From contig NC_021184.1 of assembly GCF_000233715.2 (NCBI RefSeq), forward strand, positions 2,194,001-2,258,000: DNA of 64,000 nucleotides, written 5' to 3'. Both the position numbers and the translations under genes were made by a program. Shown here piece after piece: positions 20,250 to 26,515 of this stretch. The notes beneath the pieces are model-generated. The model was given only the letters and a program-made list of their open reading frames with translations, was not told the DNA's origin and did not search any database. This stretch comes from Desulfoscipio gibsoniae DSM 7213. GTDB lineage: Bacteria; Bacillota; Desulfotomaculia; Desulfotomaculales; Desulfallaceae. How positions within the stretch are numbered: the first letter of the stretch is position 1; each line of letters begins with the position of its first letter.

Positions 20250-21104
20250 TTAGTCCGCCAGTGACAATGATTGCAACAGCGGGTTGGGGTTTATCAAATG
20301 CAGGTTAAACCATTTTTTAGTGTCGGGCAGACCCAGCGCCAGGCCGATCAGTTCTGTGAAAAAAAATGCCGGCAGGTCGGTGCCTTTTTCTTTGCGGCGC
20401 ATTTCCAGGTTGGACTGACATAACGGGCAGGCGGTAACAATAGCCATAGCCTCTACTTCTTTGGCCGCTTCAATTAAACGGTTAACCATGCCCTGGACCA
20501 CCTTGGTGGAAGTTAAACCAAGATTAGCTCCGCAGCAATCCGTTTTATACGACCATTGTATGGTCTCGGCGCCCAGAGCTTTCACTATTTTATCCATTGA
20601 CATGGGATTTTCAGTGTTGTCAAAATTGGTCACTTCGGGGGGCCTGACCAACAGGCATCCGTAGAAACATACCACCTTTAGTCCTTTTAGTGGCTTTTGC
20701 ACCTTATTGGCGATGGCCTCTACACCCACCTGGCTGACCAGCGCCTCCAACAGCGAAACGACATTAACTTTTCCATTATATTTAAAATCAACAACGCCCT
20801 CAATTTCCTTGCGTAAGTCGTCATTATTGCGTAAAACATAGTCGGCCTTTTTAACCCGGCTGTAACAAGCCGAGCAAGGTATGGCCAAATCCATACCTGC
20901 CTCCTGGGCGAGGGCCACGTTACGCGACGGCAGGGCGACGGATAGCAAATGATTGGTGCTGTGAGCTGATGTGGCCCCGCAGCAAACCCAGTCCTTGAGC
21001 TCGACCAGCTCCATGCCCAGTGCCTGGCAGGCGGCCCGGGCGGACATATCGTATTCTTTAGCGGTGGACCCTAAAGAACATCCGGGGAAATAGGAAAGTT
21101 TCAA
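20250..21104 (-). CDS. hdrB: HdrB, heterodisulfide reductase subunit B
   Basis: 284 residues. Both CCG domains are present: GCSLGS...WVCCGAT...CSACYSR in the N-terminal half, and CFYGCLL...TDCCGANLG...CPLCQSN in the C-terminal half. In methanogen HdrB these cysteines hold two non-cubane [4Fe-4S] clusters that reduce the disulfide. ATG start with AAAGGAG. It lies between hdrC and hdrA, 20 bases before hdrA. The physiological disulfide in a non-methanogen is not known. Confidence 0.95.
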   Translation of the reverse strand: MKLSYFPGCSLGSTAKEYDMSARAACQALGMELVELKDWVCCGATSAHSTNHLLSVALPSRNVALAQEAGMDLAIPCSACYSRVKKADYVLRNNDDLRKEIEGVVDFKYNGKVNVVSLLEALVSQVGVEAIANKVQKPLKGLKVVCFYGCLLVRPPEVTNFDNTENPMSMDKIVKALGAETIQWSYKTDCCGANLGLTSTKVVQGMVNRLIEAAKEVEAMAIVTACPLCQSNLEMRRKEKGTDLPAFFFTELIGLALGLPDTKKWFNLHLINPNPLLQSLSLAD

Positions 21105-21160
21105 TTTATGTAACTCCTTTCCTTTAATGGCTGATTAAATAGCTTGTCGGTTATTGTAAA

Positions 21161-21700
21161 TCAATGGGTGGTTTTGCTAAATATATCCTTAATTTTACCC
21201 CTGGCCTTGATACGATGCGGCAGTACCGGCATCTTGCCCTTTCTGAACATTTCCAATCCTACATCCATGTCTGAGAACAAATCGCCGCTTTTAATCTTAT
21301 AAATGACCATCATACTGGTTTCATGCACCCGGCCGTGGGACCGTACCGAGTTTAAAAAGGTATTGTGGAACAAATTAATGTTTTTCTCCTTAACCATACC
21401 GGCTGCAATGGCCATTTCCTTCAGCGCGTCCATCACTTCGGCAGTATTAATGCCGTTGGGGCACCGCGCTCCGCAGGTTTCACAGCTAGAACAAATCCAG
21501 ATGCTGGAGCTGTTTAATACGCGCTCTTTTTGTCCCAGCTGTACCAGGCGAATAATTTCATTGGGGTAAAAATCGGCATACCCCGTAGCTATGCAACCTG
21601 ACGCACATTTCTGACATTGGTAGCATAACTCGATGGGCTGTCCACTTTTTTCCCTGACTTCATTGAAAAATTTTCTCTTTTCTGCGTCAATGAAACCCAA
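21161..21700 (-). CDS. hdrC: HdrC, heterodisulfide reductase subunit C
   Basis: 179 residues. Two ferredoxin-type [4Fe-4S] binding motifs: CYQCQKCASGC near residue 26 and CSSCETCGARCP near residue 70, the HdrC signature. It is soluble and relays electrons from HdrA to HdrB. First gene of the operon; GGAGGGGGG precedes the TTG/ATG start region. The 715-base gap upstream holds the promoter. HdrABC without MvhD or a hydrogenase beside it means the electron donor is encoded elsewhere. Confidence 0.95.
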   Translation of the reverse strand: MGFIDAEKRKFFNEVREKSGQPIELCYQCQKCASGCIATGYADFYPNEIIRLVQLGQKERVLNSSSIWICSSCETCGARCPNGINTAEVMDALKEMAIAAGMVKEKNINLFHNTFLNSVRSHGRVHETSMMVIYKIKSGDLFSDMDVGLEMFRKGKMPVLPHRIKARGKIKDIFSKTTH

Positions 21701-22415
21701 CTGAATCCCCCCTCCTAAATAAACTTTATTTCTTTTAAAATGCTCATAATGAATAATAATTCATAAAAAGCATTGGTTAATACAACACATTTTTTAATGC
21801 AATAATTGATTGCCTTAAAACTTTAGAAATTTTATGAACTATGACCAAGTAATATGACTTTATCATAGTGTATACAACAATTTGCTTATACTTATTTATA
21901 GTTTCGCTATTAATAAATATATGAAAAAATGGTTTGGGCGTAACTAAATTATATGTTAATTGCTAAAAAAAGAAAAGAATTATCTTATAATTCAATGTCA
22001 GTTCTAAAATATATAATTCGCCTGTTGAAAATGCGGAAATATTTTGTATAAATATACATATGCTGGTTAGGGATAGCGAAAAAATACCCCGCCAAGGGGG
22101 CAGAAAAAATTTTACATTATACATTATTATGAAAAGGAGCATATGTTTATAATACTATATTATCTAAAAACTGATTTCTGTCAACTAGACGACATGATGT
22201 GCCAGATTTATAGCGATCAGTGCCAAATTCCTTTATTACTATAATTAGGAATTTAATATCAACTTATCTGTTTTTATAAATAAAGGCGGTTACTCAGCCA
22301 GTAAAATTTAAACGGTGATGCTTTAGCAATAAATGTCTAGTAATATTGGTTTCTAGTCCTTGATATTTTAAGCATAAAATGATATATTAATGTTTGCGAC
22401 CAGATAAGTTATTTT
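21701..22415. other. 715-base AT-rich gap upstream of hdrC and tRNA-Leu
   Basis: No supported gene. A short frame at 22143 has only a 3-base ribosome-binding-site spacer and an implausible composition. A few TGGCAC-type sequences occur near 22200 on the minus strand but fail the sigma-54 spacing. The bases just before 22416 must hold the tRNA-Leu promoter. Confidence 0.4.
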
Positions 22416-22499
22416 GCGGGCGTGGCGGAACGGCAGACGCGCTGGACTTAGGATCCAGTGGGGCAACTCGTGGAGGTTCAAATCCTCTCGCCCGCACCA
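22416..22499 (+). tRNA. tRNA-Leu (anticodon TAG)
   Basis: 84 bases with the long variable arm of class II tRNAs, acceptor GCGGGCG / CGCCCGC, anticodon loop CTTAGGA (TAG), and an encoded CCA end. Its 3' 54 bases are exactly repeated at 23990-24043. Confidence 0.95.
22446..22499 (+). repeat. Direct repeat copy 1 (att site in tRNA-Leu 3' end)
   Basis: 54 bases from the anticodon loop to CCA inside the intact tRNA-Leu; identical to 23990-24043. This is the classic structure left by tyrosine-recombinase integration at a tRNA 3' end, which preserves the tRNA. Confidence 0.9.
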
Positions 22500-22508
22500 G
22501 GCATAAAT

Positions 22509-22541
22509 AAAGGCTTCCCGAAAATGGGGAGCCTTTTAAAT
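22509..22541 (+). terminator. tRNA-Leu terminator
   Basis: AAAGGCTTCCC - GAAAAT - GGGGAGCCTTTT hairpin, starting 10 bases after the encoded CCA. Confidence 0.75.
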
Positions 22542-22584
22542 TTAGTCGCAATCGGTTTTTAGTCACGAAATAGTCACATGAGTT

Positions 22585-22623
22585 TTACTCGTCAAATAAC
22601 AGCTTGTCCAGTTTTAATGTCAT
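22585..22623 (-). pseudogene. Possible integrase C-terminal remnant
   Basis: A 12-codon frame (KLDKLLFDE then TAA) directly next to the tRNA att site, where the tyrosine-recombinase gene of such elements normally ends. Its ATG overlaps the hicA stop (TAATG). The short sequence resembles integrase tails only loosely. Confidence 0.3.
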
Positions 22624-22847
22624 TATAACAATTCAATTAATTCCTCAACAGTTAGGCCCGCTTGTTCTAAAATGCTTTTGATTAATATTGGGCTTAATGT
22701 CTCCCCTGCATGAACGGGCACTGTTACCAGTTTATTCCCTGGCTTATGTAAATGGTGATGGCTGCCGGTTACTCTTACCACTGTGAAGCCGGCTCTTTTG
22801 AGGGCTGTTACAACCTTCTTGCCGGTGGTCCTGGGCATCCTCGTCAT
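22623..22847 (-). CDS. hicA: HicA-family mRNA interferase toxin
   Basis: 74 residues. The HicA double-stranded-RNA-binding-like fold is shown by GKKVVTALKRAGFTVVRVTGSHHHL, with the catalytic His in GSHHHL, and VPVHAGETLSP. The start overlaps the hicB stop (ATGA), giving translational coupling. It would cleave mRNA when not bound by HicB. Gene order here is xre-hicB-hicA, with the antitoxin gene first. Confidence 0.92.
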   Translation of the reverse strand: MTRMPRTTGKKVVTALKRAGFTVVRVTGSHHHLHKPGNKLVTVPVHAGETLSPILIKSILEQAGLTVEELIELL

Positions 22848-23071
22848 GAAACACTTACCTGCACTTCAGCAAATTCAACGTCTCCCTGTGGGACTGGCTC
22901 ACCAATTAACTTTAGGGCCTCAATATGGCCGGTAATAGCTTCCTGGATACGCTCCAATGCTTCTTCCCGGTTCTTCCCCTGGGTAACACAGCCTGGTAAG
23001 GCAGGAACGGTTACAACATAAACCTGTGTTTCATTATCCCAGGAAAGGATAACTTTGAACTTGCGCGGCAT
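22844..23071 (-). CDS. hicB: HicB-family antitoxin
   Basis: 75 residues with the HicB RNase H-like pattern: ETQVYVVTVPALPGCVTQGKNREEALERIQEAI. No C-terminal DNA-binding domain is present; the separate XRE protein encoded just upstream may take that role. AAGGAGG site before ATG. The gene start overlaps the end of the xre gene by 38 bases. Confidence 0.92.
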   Translation of the reverse strand: MPRKFKVILSWDNETQVYVVTVPALPGCVTQGKNREEALERIQEAITGHIEALKLIGEPVPQGDVEFAEVQVSVS

Positions 23072-23285
23072 CAGCGGATTCCTCCTTTACATATTCCATT
23101 AAGTCCCCGGGTTGGACGTTTAGAGCGGAACAAATACGATCTATAACAGAGACATCCACTCTGGTAATAGAGCCTTTGTAAATCGCGTAAAGAGTATTTT
23201 TATTAACACCGCTCATTTCTTGTAATTTGGGTATTTTCATGTTTCCTTTTTCAAAAAGCAATCTATCAAGTTTAAATTTAATCAT
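23034..23285 (-). CDS. XRE-family (Cro/CI-like) regulator, 83 aa
   Basis: Start ATG at 23285 with GGAGGG; a 12-residue upstream extension is unlikely. The helix-turn-helix is KIPKLQEMSGVNKNTLYAIYKGSITRVD, followed by DRICSALNVQPGDLMEY. This is a DUF739/Cro-like transcriptional regulator. It overlaps hicB and probably represses this promoter; a TGTACA repeat array lies about 80 bases upstream (23367-23393). Confidence 0.85.
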   Translation of the reverse strand: MIKFKLDRLLFEKGNMKIPKLQEMSGVNKNTLYAIYKGSITRVDVSVIDRICSALNVQPGDLMEYVKEESADAAQVQSYPFLG

Positions 23286-23366
23286 GGCAAACCCTCCTGG
23301 CAATATATGTACATTATACAATGAATAAAATAAAAAATCAAATTAACGTAATAATTTATACAATTA

Positions 23367-23393
23367 ACAATGTACAATGTACAATGTACAATG
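23367..23393. repeat. Four-unit 7-base tandem repeat
   Basis: ACAATGT repeated four times, the last unit ending ACAATG. This creates three overlapping palindromes of TGTACA with 7-base spacing, upstream of the xre-hicBA operon. It is a candidate operator for the XRE protein. Confidence 0.6.
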
Positions 23394-23684
23394 AAGTCAA
23401 GAATTATTACCATGATGTATGTAAAATAACCCGCGTTTCCAGGGGGAGTTTCCTGGAGGGATGCACACCCCAAAAGTGCTGCCCTGAGTGGTAAGAGTAT
23501 GAGACCTGAACAGTCCACCAGGGCGAAAAAAGCAAAACTGTTGAAGCCAACCAACTGCCGGCAAAGCGCAGCAGCTCCCCTGGCCCGGGTGCTGCACACA
23601 CCAGAATTGATTATTGTACATGCTACCGGGTTGGGCGTCCCCCGGGACAAACGGGATCCCGTCACAACGAGGGAGGTTAAGACC

Positions 23685-23909
23685 ATGTATTTTAAAAACA
23701 AAGCCCACAGGGAGTTATTTGAACAATACAGGTGGCTTTCCCAGGCCGGCAATGACCGGGAATACAACTCATTGTGCTACCTGCTGGCCGCTATTGGCAA
23801 GCCTTTAGAAAGGTACTTCAAGCCTCGTAATGTGGCTATCAGGGGTATTATGGCAGCCTTCAGAGGATGGAGCAGCGGTGAAATAGCACTTGTCAAACTT
23901 TGTCTATAG
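23685..23909 (+). CDS. DUF6075-like small protein, 74 aa
   Basis: ATG behind GGGAGG, although the frame stays open to 23499. The N-terminal MYFKNKAHRELFEQY and the C-terminal AFRGWSSGEIALVKL resemble the phage/element-associated DUF6075 family, which typically runs a few residues longer, so the C-terminus may be shortened. The 400 bases before it (23286-23684) are non-coding, with GC-rich hairpins such as CAGGGGGAGTTTCCTGG. Function unknown. Confidence 0.5.
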   Translation: MYFKNKAHRELFEQYRWLSQAGNDREYNSLCYLLAAIGKPLERYFKPRNVAIRGIMAAFRGWSSGEIALVKLCL

Positions 23910-23989
23910 CAAAAATAATAACCCTTATTTCATGCGGGTTTCCGTAGACAGGAAAAATGCAAAATATGTAAAAATAAGAAAATTATGAA

Positions 23990-24043
23990 ACTTAGGATCC
24001 AGTGGGGCAACTCGTGGAGGTTCAAATCCTCTCGCCCGCACCA
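23990..24043 (+). repeat. Direct repeat copy 2 (tRNA-Leu 3' half)
   Basis: Identical to 22446-22499. No 5' half of a tRNA precedes it, so it is not a functional tRNA but the distal att site. Confidence 0.9.
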
Positions 24044-24044
24044 A

Positions 24045-24100
24045 TAAAAAAAGCAGTACATCACTACCTTTGGTAGTTGTGTACTGCTTTGTGTTTATTT
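24045..24100. terminator. Strong hairpin terminator
   Basis: AAAGCAGTACA / TGTACTGCTTT with an inner CACTACC / GGTAGTTG stem. It lies directly beyond the att repeat and can end transcripts from either side, including the 24121 gene on the minus strand. Confidence 0.7.
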
Positions 24101-24120
24101 GTCCATATAAAATTACTGCT

Positions 24121-24369
24121 TTAGGACATTTTAGTTACATTGTCGGCATTCATTCTATCGGAGCCTTTCGGTACAAAGGTTTTGCAGCAGGTGGCCATGC
24201 AGGAGTCCGCAGCCGCCGGAGTTAACTGTTTAGCCATTGTGGCATCAATGTTATCCGGCTGGTTTGATGCAAAGGCATCGGGGGTTACTAAAATTTCATT
24301 GGCTACACACTTGTTGCCTTCCGCCCAGTAATGGCAATTATTAATAATGCAATGGATGTGTTGATTCAT
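24121..24369 (-). CDS. DUF1540-domain protein, 82 aa
   Basis: Two Cys pairs: HCIINNCHYWAEGNKCVANEI near the N-terminus and SCMATCCKTF near the C-terminus; the first is the DUF1540 signature (C-x5-C-x8-C pattern with YW). DUF1540 proteins are small metal-binding or disulfide proteins found in clostridial spore formers. An AAGGAGG site is 13 bases upstream of the ATG, longer than usual. Function not established. Confidence 0.75.
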   Translation of the reverse strand: MNQHIHCIINNCHYWAEGNKCVANEILVTPDAFASNQPDNIDATMAKQLTPAAADSCMATCCKTFVPKGSDRMNADNVTKMS

Positions 24370-24499
24370 TTCTTTAATCTTTCCTCCTTATTTAATAACG
24401 TTTAAATTCCACATTTATTATCCCCGCATATTATTAATTTATTTGCCAGATGTAATAAAATTTTAGTTGCGTAAATAATTTGTCACTAGTTCTTATGAA

Positions 24500-25069
24500 T
24501 TAATACCAGTAGTCTGGATATTTACGTTCGCTGGAAATGTTATTAACTAATAAGGCAATGACTAGCAGGCATATTATACCAAGTCCCACGGGTGATAAAA
24601 TGAAGCTAAAATCTTGGTGTGTGTAAATGGCTAAAAAGGCTGTTGCCCCGCCGGGCGGGTGCAGGGTATAAGTTAATGTCATAACAATAATGGCCAGTGT
24701 CACGCCCAGGGGGATAACCCACCATGCATAACCAAACAGCCGATATACCAAGACACCTATAAATGCCGAGATTACGTGCCCGCCCAATACATTCCTGGGT
24801 TGTGCCATAGGTAAGTGACAGGCCGCATAAAGCAGTGCTGCCGATGCGCCAAAGGAAGGAAGTAGTAGTGGCAGTCCATAATGATCAGCCAGAGCAGCCA
24901 CCAGCCCCAACCCGGCAAAGCTGCCCATGGCGGTGATTAATATACTGGAAAGTGATATCTTAGGTATGCTGGTGCAGTGTCCACCCTTCATTTTACACAG
25001 ATAAGCAGTAAGTGTTTTCCACTTTGAAGGATAGGTATCCTGCATGGCTCGTTCAAGGGAGTTTTTCAT
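24500..25069 (-). CDS. HPP-family membrane protein
   Basis: 189 residues with four hydrophobic helices and the family motif LHPPGGATAFLA. N-terminal residues are polar. HPP-family proteins of bacteria and plastids are linked to nitrite/anion transport. The start at 25069 is chosen because AAAGGATG is well spaced; the frame opens three codons earlier. It is monocistronic. Confidence 0.85.
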   Translation of the reverse strand: MKNSLERAMQDTYPSKWKTLTAYLCKMKGGHCTSIPKISLSSILITAMGSFAGLGLVAALADHYGLPLLLPSFGASAALLYAACHLPMAQPRNVLGGHVISAFIGVLVYRLFGYAWWVIPLGVTLAIIVMTLTYTLHPPGGATAFLAIYTHQDFSFILSPVGLGIICLLVIALLVNNISSERKYPDYWY

Positions 25070-25144
25070 TATTATCATCCTTTGCCTGCACTTGTGTCAT
25101 ACATATTACAAATGATACGCAGTTTTACAATGCATTGTATGCCA

Positions 25145-25444
25145 TTAATTAACCGGTGTGCTAAAAAGCACAATGATAACAAAGTTTTCTCCGTTAGGCT
25201 TGAAAATCCTCCCGTCAGCTGCCACATCACCGGCTTTACCATCATCATTAACATATCCGGCGTTTCCAGTTTTTTTAGGTTTTCTTATTTTATGCCTTTG
25301 GGATTTGCTCGTGGCAACATTATCTTTGTCGTTATTTTCGCTTATGAGTTCTTGCTCTTCACCCGTTTCCACCAGGGAAAAATCAACGTGATCGGGTGGC
25401 CCGTTATAACCAAGTATTTTTCTAGCCCAATGTTTAAACTGCAT
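25145..25444 (-). CDS. Hypothetical polar protein, 99 aa
   Basis: ATG with AAGGTGAG. The first 35 residues (QFKHWARKILGYNGPPDHVDFSL) look like the beginning of a membrane-associated protein such as a GerA subunit N-terminus, followed by a low-complexity, Lys/Asp/Asn-rich segment and a hydrophobic C-terminus (FVIIVLFSTPV). It may be a truncated gene. No family is certain. Confidence 0.5.
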   Translation of the reverse strand: MQFKHWARKILGYNGPPDHVDFSLVETGEEQELISENNDKDNVATSKSQRHKIRKPKKTGNAGYVNDDGKAGDVAADGRIFKPNGENFVIIVLFSTPVN

Positions 25445-25584
25445 TTACTCACCTTACCGCGAAACAAAAAGCTTATAGCATCAAATTTACTTTTGTACGG
25501 GTAATATCAGATAATCTGCTGTAAAAGGTTTCCCAAAAGGTGTAAACTTTATTGCCACTGCAAATACCTTCCACCATTTATTAA

Positions 25585-25610
25585 ATAAAAAACCTCCTTA
25601 ACGGAGGTTT
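25585..25610 (-). terminator. Rho-independent terminator
   Basis: Minus strand: AAACCTCCG / GGAGGTTT stem followed by TTTATTT, 18 bases past the stop of the 25628 gene. Confidence 0.8.
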
Positions 25611-25627
25611 GGGTCTCACAATTAAAA

Positions 25628-26020
25628 TTAATGCTTTTTTATCAAGCCCAATAAGCGCAATACTAAAAATCTACAAAACAAGTAAACACCCAGCAGAACC
25701 AGAAATCCCCACAGGCTGGCCAAAACATCTCCCAGTTCCATACCGCCACGACCGGTCAACTTTTGCTCTACCTCCAGGATTAAAACCAGGATAGATATAA
25801 TGGCAGAAGTAAAGAAAAAGGAGATCAAGGAGACATTAAATTTAGCCAGCCATTTAAAAAGAACGTCTGTAAATATGAAAAAAAACACACCGAGGAGGCC
25901 TATGATCCAAAAATGCAAATCCTTATCTGTAAAAGGGAGTCCTAAATGCCTGCTATATGCCCAAATGCTATCATGCAGGTCGTTAATAAAATTAGTGATT
26001 TGACTGATTAATGTCATCAT
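25628..26020 (-). CDS. Membrane protein, 130 aa, three predicted helices
   Basis: Hydrophobic stretches: FWIIGLLGVFFFIFTDVLF, LISFFFTSAIISILVLIL and LWGFLVLLGVYLFCRFLVL. The N-terminal 30 residues are amphipathic and the C-terminus is basic (LIKKH). ATG pair at 26020/26017, where AAAGTTGG is a weak ribosome-binding site. The family is not recognised. Confidence 0.65.
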   Translation of the reverse strand: MMTLISQITNFINDLHDSIWAYSRHLGLPFTDKDLHFWIIGLLGVFFFIFTDVLFKWLAKFNVSLISFFFTSAIISILVLILEVEQKLTGRGGMELGDVLASLWGFLVLLGVYLFCRFLVLRLLGLIKKH

Positions 26021-26188
26021 ATTAAACACCAACTTTCACTAGTTATATTATGCTTATTTAGTATATTTTGTTAAAGATTATAAAATCTTTTTTCTAAAAT
26101 TTTTCTTTTGACTCCACAACAATTTTTCTGTATAATAATATTGTTCGCTTCAGACGAGCGATTAATTTAATAACTGTTACGAAACCGG

Positions 26189-26262
26189 GCGGGTGTAGCT
26201 CAATGGTAGAGCCCTGGCCTTCCAAGCCAGTCGTGTGGGTTCGATTCCCATCACCCGCTCCA
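26189..26262 (+). tRNA. tRNA-Gly (anticodon TCC)
   Basis: 74 bases; acceptor GCGGGTG / CACCCGC, D-loop TAGCTCAATGGTAGAG, anticodon loop CTTCCAA (TCC), T-loop TTCGATT, encoded CCA. Confidence 0.97.
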
Positions 26263-26269
26263 ATTTTAT

Positions 26270-26346
<77 letters not shown>

Positions 26347-26354
26347 AAAAAAGT

Positions 26355-26390
26355 AAGGGAGTCGCAATGGTTTGCGGCTCCTTTAATTTT
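26355..26390 (+). terminator. Terminator of the tRNA-Gly/Arg unit
   Basis: Stem GGGAGTCGCAA / TTGCGGCTCC followed by TTTAATTTTG, directly after the encoded CCA. Confidence 0.7.
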
Positions 26391-26493
26391 GTGTCAACCA
26401 GGTTGACCATCGTTTTGGTTGACGGTGGTTGCCTTCGCTTTTGTAGCATCACCTGGGGACATTATAGCAAACGTTCGTTTGCCTGGAAAGGTT

Positions 26494-26515
26494 AAAAAAA
26501 CGCCCAGAAGGGCGT
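26494..26515 (-). terminator. Rho-independent terminator
   Basis: Minus strand: ACGCCC / GGGCGT stem with a TTCT loop and a run of seven Ts. Two bases past the small gene at 26517. Confidence 0.8.

Follow-up and report, generated by a model that had tools for sequence, protein, structure and literature searches.

The tRNA-Leu(TAG) gene of the genome studied here (coded G000) holds a 1.5-kb unit which we consider, with a probability of nearly 0.8, to be a minimal decayed integrative element (CIME) that has lost its integrase and kept its toxin-antitoxin (TA) pair. The window analysed, i.e. the whole stretch of 64,000 nucleotides, corresponds to bases 2,194,001-2,258,000 of a single 4,855,529-bp contig. 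Moving outward from the tRNA, there are a hairpin, an arm-like repeat, 12 codons, hicA, hicB, xre, a non-coding block, a DUF6075-like open reading frame, a 25-nt motif and a half tRNA, as follows (positions in the window):

22416-22499, + strand: complete tRNA-Leu(TAG), attL side (ARAGORN; Rfam tRNA, 58.5 bits)
22446-22499, + strand: 54-nt repeat, copy within the intact tRNA, from 3 nt before the anticodon (ARAGORN, repeat finder)
22509-22537, + strand: hairpin AAAGGCTTCCC..GGGGAGCCTTTT, just 3' of the tRNA; the layout recurs at other tRNA integration sites
22556-22579, + strand: integrase-arm-like direct repeat TAGTCAC..TAGTCAC (pattern search of the genomes of the order)
22585-22623, - strand: MTLKLDKLLFDE plus stop, putative 3' end (12 codons) of the integrase gene that was lost, directly adjoining the stop of hicA; similar tails at two other sites
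22623-22847, - strand: hicA toxin, 74 aa (PF07927, 1.6e-19)
22844-23071, - strand: hicB antitoxin, 75 aa (PF15919, 2e-11)
23034-23285, - strand: xre/HTH_26 regulator, 83 aa, at the head of the operon, with its ATG at 23285 (PF13443, 3.1e-17)
23371-23393, no strand: tandem repeats of TGTACAA, possibly an operator, upstream of xre
23420-23684, no strand: non-coding block (folding against shuffles; Rfam)
23685-23909, + strand: DUF6075-like fragment, 74 aa (weak PF19552 match; relatives of 115-116 aa)
23918-23942, + strand: 25-nt motif ATAACCCTTATTTCATGCGGGTTTC, near the right end; a 21-nt core recurs in other mobile elements
23990-24043, + strand: 54-nt repeat, free-standing 3' part of tRNA-Leu, attR (repeat finder)

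A single 54-nt family was returned by the repeat finder, with both copies 100% identical, 1544 nt apart from start to start, and spanning from 3 nt before the anticodon to the CCA of tRNA-Leu(TAG); only these two copies of the 3' part of the tRNA were seen in the region searched (21000-26500). The segment between the anticodon loop and CCA is a usual target of tyrosine integrases that use tRNA genes, and 54 identical bases are beyond chance. The unit is flanked by attL and attR direct repeats from the 3' end of its target gene, matching at 54/54 nt. A first-pass annotation of this DNA had described the repetition of the last 54 nt of the tRNA without mismatch, which was confirmed with ARAGORN and the repeat finder, and had read it as site-specific insertion at tRNA-Leu, which the repeat together with the tRNA call supports. 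The plain tandem duplication of the tRNA that it had raised as an alternative was not seen, the two copies not being arranged in that way; nor were element-free relatives carrying a second half tRNA, since G001 and G003-G006, of the same genus, have a single full-length copy of the repeated part (93% identical in G001 and 100% in the others). G002 was set aside as uninterpretable, with two copies, one of them at a contig end, two hdr clusters and 5% contamination.

An exact empty site was not found in G001-G006 and further relatives. The absence of a clean empty-site joint is explained by the rearrangement of the region, given that in G001 and G006 tRNA-Leu and its promoter region have the opposite orientation with respect to the flanks on either side (window 22200-24090 against loci L026 and L029), with the flanks staying in order at 21600-22194 and, in G006, at 24092-24478. 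The sequence past attR gave no convincing match in 14 relatives (best shuffle p 0.02 with G005; 0.073 with G001). At the matching tRNA-Leu of G006, a hicB fragment (PF15919, 5.1e-7) follows a related hairpin and TTTTAGTCACATA. Among the relatives examined, tRNA-Leu, DUF1540 and tRNA-Gly/Arg vary in their order and strand, and in G003 (L025) about 4 kb with an IS3-like transposase, recognized by eye, and other genes lie 3' of tRNA-Leu; no further exact copy of the end of the tRNA was found in those 4 kb.

With respect to gene content, hicA, hicB and xre are open frames whose products pass the Pfam cut-offs, and the HicA and HicB domains are encoded in one operon by overlapping genes. HicA is an RNA-cutting toxin and HicB its antidote. 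The TA system proposed in the first-pass annotation was thus borne out, HicA, HicB and the HTH_26 regulator all being confirmed by Pfam, and judging from its reading frames the module looks intact. With PADLOC and NCBIfam, the sole matches were weak ones between Xre and regulators; HicA, HicB and the DUF6075 fragment had none. As in known xre-hicB-hicA operons (type II TA), HicA and HicB score above the Pfam cut-offs, and the gene order is that of G001, contig 42 of G034, and G046; the window differs in its short HicB of 75 aa, whose best match spans positions 2-57 of a 123-position profile, and in having a separate gene for the regulator. Values of dN were well below those of dS for hicB between G000 and G067 (0.036 and 0.814) and for hicA between G000 and G046 (0.074 and 1.02), which indicates that the hicBA family is under constraint, as measured between species and not since decay in G000. 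Between G040 and G049, of one genus and both at tRNA-Val, the values were 0.012/0.195 for hicB and 0.030/0.081 for hicA, from few changes. As for the DUF6075-like gene described earlier, its relatives in G066 and G077 (115 and 116 aa) span nearly all of PF19552, one with 25.5 bits and the other with 21.6 bits (cut-off 23.8); the window frame itself matches weakly (E 0.15, below the cut-off) and, with 74 aa against 115-116 aa in the relatives, is a truncated fragment in which the C-terminal third is missing rather than a whole gene. A TTGTACATG site at 23614-23622, before this fragment, and the TGTACAA repeats could be Xre operators.

The left end of the unit retains the layout of an attachment site. 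The arm pattern TTAGTCACNAAANAGTCACAT, allowing up to one mismatch, was found in 3/113 genomes of the order, once in each, and the reversed-pattern control in none. All three sites adjoin tRNA-Leu: that of the window, that of G102, next to an intact tRNA-Leu(TAG) (ARAGORN), and that of G100, next to a half tRNA, by eye of tRNA-Leu(CAA), with a second 24-nt copy around 1.6 kb further on. Similar tails follow the three arm sites (LDKLLFDE, LDDILFNK and LDNILFKKQVP, each ending at a stop codon), and tRNA-Leu(TAA) in G096 constitutes a fourth site, where the hairpin and a single copy of the repeat are present. The tail in G102, of 20 residues, aligns to the C-terminus of a purpose-built integrase profile with E 0.26, and the 12-codon tail of the window is absent from the profile matches at E <= 1. 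The frame that the first-pass annotation had tentatively taken for 12 codons of an integrase is indeed present at 22585-22623 on the - strand, but its origin is putative, the profile giving no match; such a tail is too short to prove homology, and it is perhaps that of an integrase. The succession of tRNA 3' end, hairpin, short direct repeats and integrase 3' end was also observed in G000 at tRNA-Arg(CCT), with an integrase frame of 414 aa, and at tRNA-Gly(CCC), where the frame is shorter (235 aa), and tRNA-Arg(TCT) of G006 has an identical layout with a 413-aa integrase frame. The window has this layout, with the integrase cut down to the putative 12-codon tail.

Flanks were also compared with shuffled sequences, in 28 comparisons (the two window flanks against 14 relatives). 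The attL flank stood out against G102 (equalled by 0/300 shuffles) and G006 (p 0.003); in another five comparisons p was 0.02-0.05, somewhat above chance expectation among 28, and no meaning was drawn from them. In a scan of 398 genomes of the phylum, the arm pattern was found in G000 and, within a gene, in G167, while the reversed pattern had four matches, so that a single arm match at that scale is at chance level. No relative was found with the arm-like repeat of the window plus a complete integrase. In the window, no open reading frame of at least 40 aa matched the profile, built from 14 integrases, at E <= 0.01, which supports the earlier statement that the integrase is lost, except perhaps for its tail. 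A search with the whole element gave matches in G040 and G009 that begin exactly at the hicA stop (22623), where the putative tail starts, as would be expected if a deletion junction lies there.

The interior and right end of the unit were analysed as well. The non-coding block had been described as structured, but it folds no better than shuffled sequences (MFE -87.7 vs -85.0 +/- 4.8 kcal/mol, z -0.56) and Rfam gave no match within 23420-23684 up to E 5, so a structured RNA was rejected there. A hairpin in the block (AACAGT/ACTGTT, 23504-23546) has a counterpart in G001 (L050), with one covarying pair by eye; its pattern was present in 3/113 genomes, the third not being complementary by eye, and in no viral contig, and on these grounds it was dropped as a conserved RNA. 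A 60-nt piece of the block was found again in G001 (L050) beside an excisionase-like gene, and of three further short matches to the block two (L048, L051) fall inside coding sequence. Near the right end, the 21-mer CCCTTATTTCATGCGGGTTTC (23922-23942) occurs in 23 exact stretches of the genome contigs, against approximately 0.12 expected at random, and in two viral contigs, being spread over Clostridia and Proteobacteria. In 11/23 cases it lies within 40 nt of TTCCCACTC, identified in the three cases checked (L056, L071, L074) as the 3' terminus of a GMP synthase gene. A whole or half tRNA-Pro is close to the 21-mer in G022 and G023, and a serine recombinase in L058. A search of 5.39 million open-access papers gave no match to the motif strings tried. 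Integrative elements that are otherwise unrelated may share the 21-mer as a conserved feature of their ends; the motif was not adopted as an integrase core site, because it is found near tyrosine integrases (L059, L067, L074) and the serine recombinase (L058) alike.

HicB homologues (E <= 1e-6) are present in 63/113 genomes of the order, and besides the window 29 loci returned for the best HicB matches were scanned over around 1.5 kb on each side, several being ended by contig ends. A tRNA or tmRNA gene was found in 13 of the 29, and in 13/13 the nearest such gene is oriented with its 3' end towards hicB. The distance is below 1 kb in 12 of them (105-689 nt) and 1,218 nt in the remaining one, where integrase fragments intervene. 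Outside the graded series described below, most of the loci count as inserted elements by position alone, a second tRNA copy not having been found there. Loci of ParE, the one control family, fetched likewise (30 loci, 7 of them shorter than 3.1 kb), gave 0/30 (Fisher p 1.7e-5), a comparison in which the hicB loci are not fully independent, since G040 and G049 share genus and tRNA, and G019 and G034 belong to one family and both have tmRNA. The targets comprise tRNA-Leu(TAG), Val, Arg, Gly and Thr, and tmRNA. In G067, from another family, a 95%-identical HicB is encoded 136 nt from tRNA-Leu(TAG), and a 30-residue integrase fragment around the HGLR box lies between them (E 2.7e-6).

Searching 29 regions, window included, with the integrase profile revealed a graded series. 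At tRNA-Gly, G025 has a full-length integrase of 405 aa, with arm-binding, SAM-like and catalytic domains, in an element of about 11 kb with attR at 45/45, xre-hicBA, and Toprim/AAA and helicase genes. Split or truncated integrases were identified at five loci: G046, at tRNA-Leu(TAA), where the gene is split over two frames and no second tRNA copy was found in 11.5 kb; G018, with 166-aa and 138-aa fragments whose frames differ; contig 42 of G034, with a 139-aa integrase, a DUF6075 remnant, xre and hicBA, and a 55-nt tRNA repeat at 89%; G022, with 66 aa and no tRNA in the 11 kb examined; and G067. At the end of the series, no integrase was found and hic lies between tRNA repeats in the window, G090 (48/48), G040 (39/41) and G064 (33/40), the cassettes having approximately 0.65-1.5 kb between repeats (0.8 kb in G090). 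The match in G056 was borderline (E 0.001), and that in G006 corresponds to a separate element at tRNA-Arg. The hicA frame is broken and hicB open in G067 and G106, and in G099 hicA was not found and hicB is open; both genes are damaged in G009 and G064, and both open in G040, G049 and G090. Prior loss of the toxin thus seems common, but not the rule. The G025 locus (L192, 3900-15738), at tRNA-Gly(CCC), has an accretion structure, in which the integrase element is followed by a half tRNA and a second hicBA.

According to PMC5704250, CIMEs (cis-mobilizable elements) are ICEs or IMEs that have decayed, losing integration and transfer genes and keeping attL and attR. The window unit resembles this description in that attL and attR flank it and integration and transfer genes are gone, and a tandem (accretion) example exists at the related G025 locus; it differs in its size of only 1.5 kb and in having the TA operon as practically its sole whole genes. 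Elements of the ICE/IME type with a TA module as a possible addiction system are mentioned in the same source; they are alike in having a TA operon in a tRNA-inserted element, whereas in the window the TA operon appears to outlive the element. Leaving aside the parent element (ICE, IME or phage satellite), the unit fits the CIME features tested and no new category is needed, although its small size and the survival of the TA operon alone are unusual.

The course of events could have been the following. A tyrosine-integrase element with xre-hicB-hicA and a DUF6075 gene would have entered tRNA-Leu(TAG) in the segment from the anticodon loop to the 3' end, supplying a new 3' part of the tRNA and displacing the old one to the far side. 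Deletions would then have taken all the sequence separating the hicA stop from the final 12 codons of the integrase gene, and on the other side truncated the DUF6075 gene. What remains would be attL and its arm-like sites, attR, and in between a HicBA addiction module that apparently works; this remnant would be unable to excise by itself, and HicBA would make its loss costly. One observation counts against slow decay, namely that the distal half tRNA, which is unconstrained, shows no drift (54/54) though most of the element is gone; this fits fast decay, and also arrival as an already small element.

The latter corresponds to a second model offered in the first-pass annotation, a trans-mobilised satellite, according to which the unit would be a 1.5-kb non-autonomous cassette moved by the integrase of another element. 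Both att ends and the arm-like sites are kept, the repeats are identical in such a tiny unit, as they also are in the 0.8-kb cassette of G090 (48/48), G000 has 30 Phage_integrase matches, and related integrase-free hic cassettes lie between repeats at tRNA-Val and tRNA-Thr. However, among 113 genomes the junction between hicA and the integrase tail was found only in G000, in a sample with one genome per species where recent movement between strains would stay invisible. A search with 22500-22640, which gave any match at E <= 0.1 in 20/113 genomes, the own one included, returned from other genomes only pieces of 18-42 nt, the best (E 0.0016) being the arm site of G100. The arm-like repeat occurs once in G000 (up to one mismatch), so no sibling element with matching ends is visible. 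In viral contigs the att and arm patterns had no exact match, and in the 20 phage records listed (of 48), as in each of the 7 plasmid records, similarity is confined to the tRNA part and at most 12 nt beyond. Moreover, related loci have integrase remnants that differ in length, which speaks for decay in situ. We thus regard mobilisation in trans as improbable: of the two models offered, the graded remnants favour the decayed element, and the satellite has found no positive evidence.

An accretion scar, in which the right half tRNA and the left end would come from successive elements at tRNA-Leu and the middle would be a mosaic, overlaps with the decay model and seems rather unlikely as a separate explanation. 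The tandem arrangement in G025 of tRNA-Gly, an integrase element with hicBA, a half tRNA and a second hicBA offers a precedent, and the right-end motif of the window occurs in elements at other attachment sites, but there are just two copies of the tRNA 3' part in 21000-26500. Much less credit can be given to a partial duplication of the tRNA by local rearrangement with hicBA there by chance, which was already disfavoured. The region does rearrange, as the inverted tRNA segment in G000 versus G001 and G006 indicates; nevertheless, the copy is single in G001 and G003-G006, the hairpin and arm-like repeat are common to other tRNA-Leu sites, and a tRNA or tmRNA 3' end faces hicB at 13/29 loci. 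Decay of an integrative element remains our preferred reading.

Beyond this locus, hicBA cassettes, often xre-hicBA, framed by tRNA 3'-end repeats might constitute a recurring class of integrase-free mini-islands in the order, either mobilised in trans by whichever integrase has the tRNA in question as its target, or left time and again as the last survivors of decay, a generalization that we put forward only tentatively and think more apt to fail than to hold. In the titles, abstract openings and portion of one review covered by our literature search, no account of hicBA left at tRNA 3' ends was found. If the cassettes are indeed last survivors, tRNA and tmRNA 3' ends would become graveyards of addiction modules. 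The debate on whether decaying islands are retained through their TA modules usually draws on individual cases. In our data, one HicB family provides a stepwise natural series across several different tRNA genes, which begins with a full-length integrase and ends with att repeats plus hicBA alone. The notion that addiction outlives the element thereby becomes countable across genomes, both as to the order in which the two genes are lost and as to whether TA cassettes persist more often than neutrality would predict.
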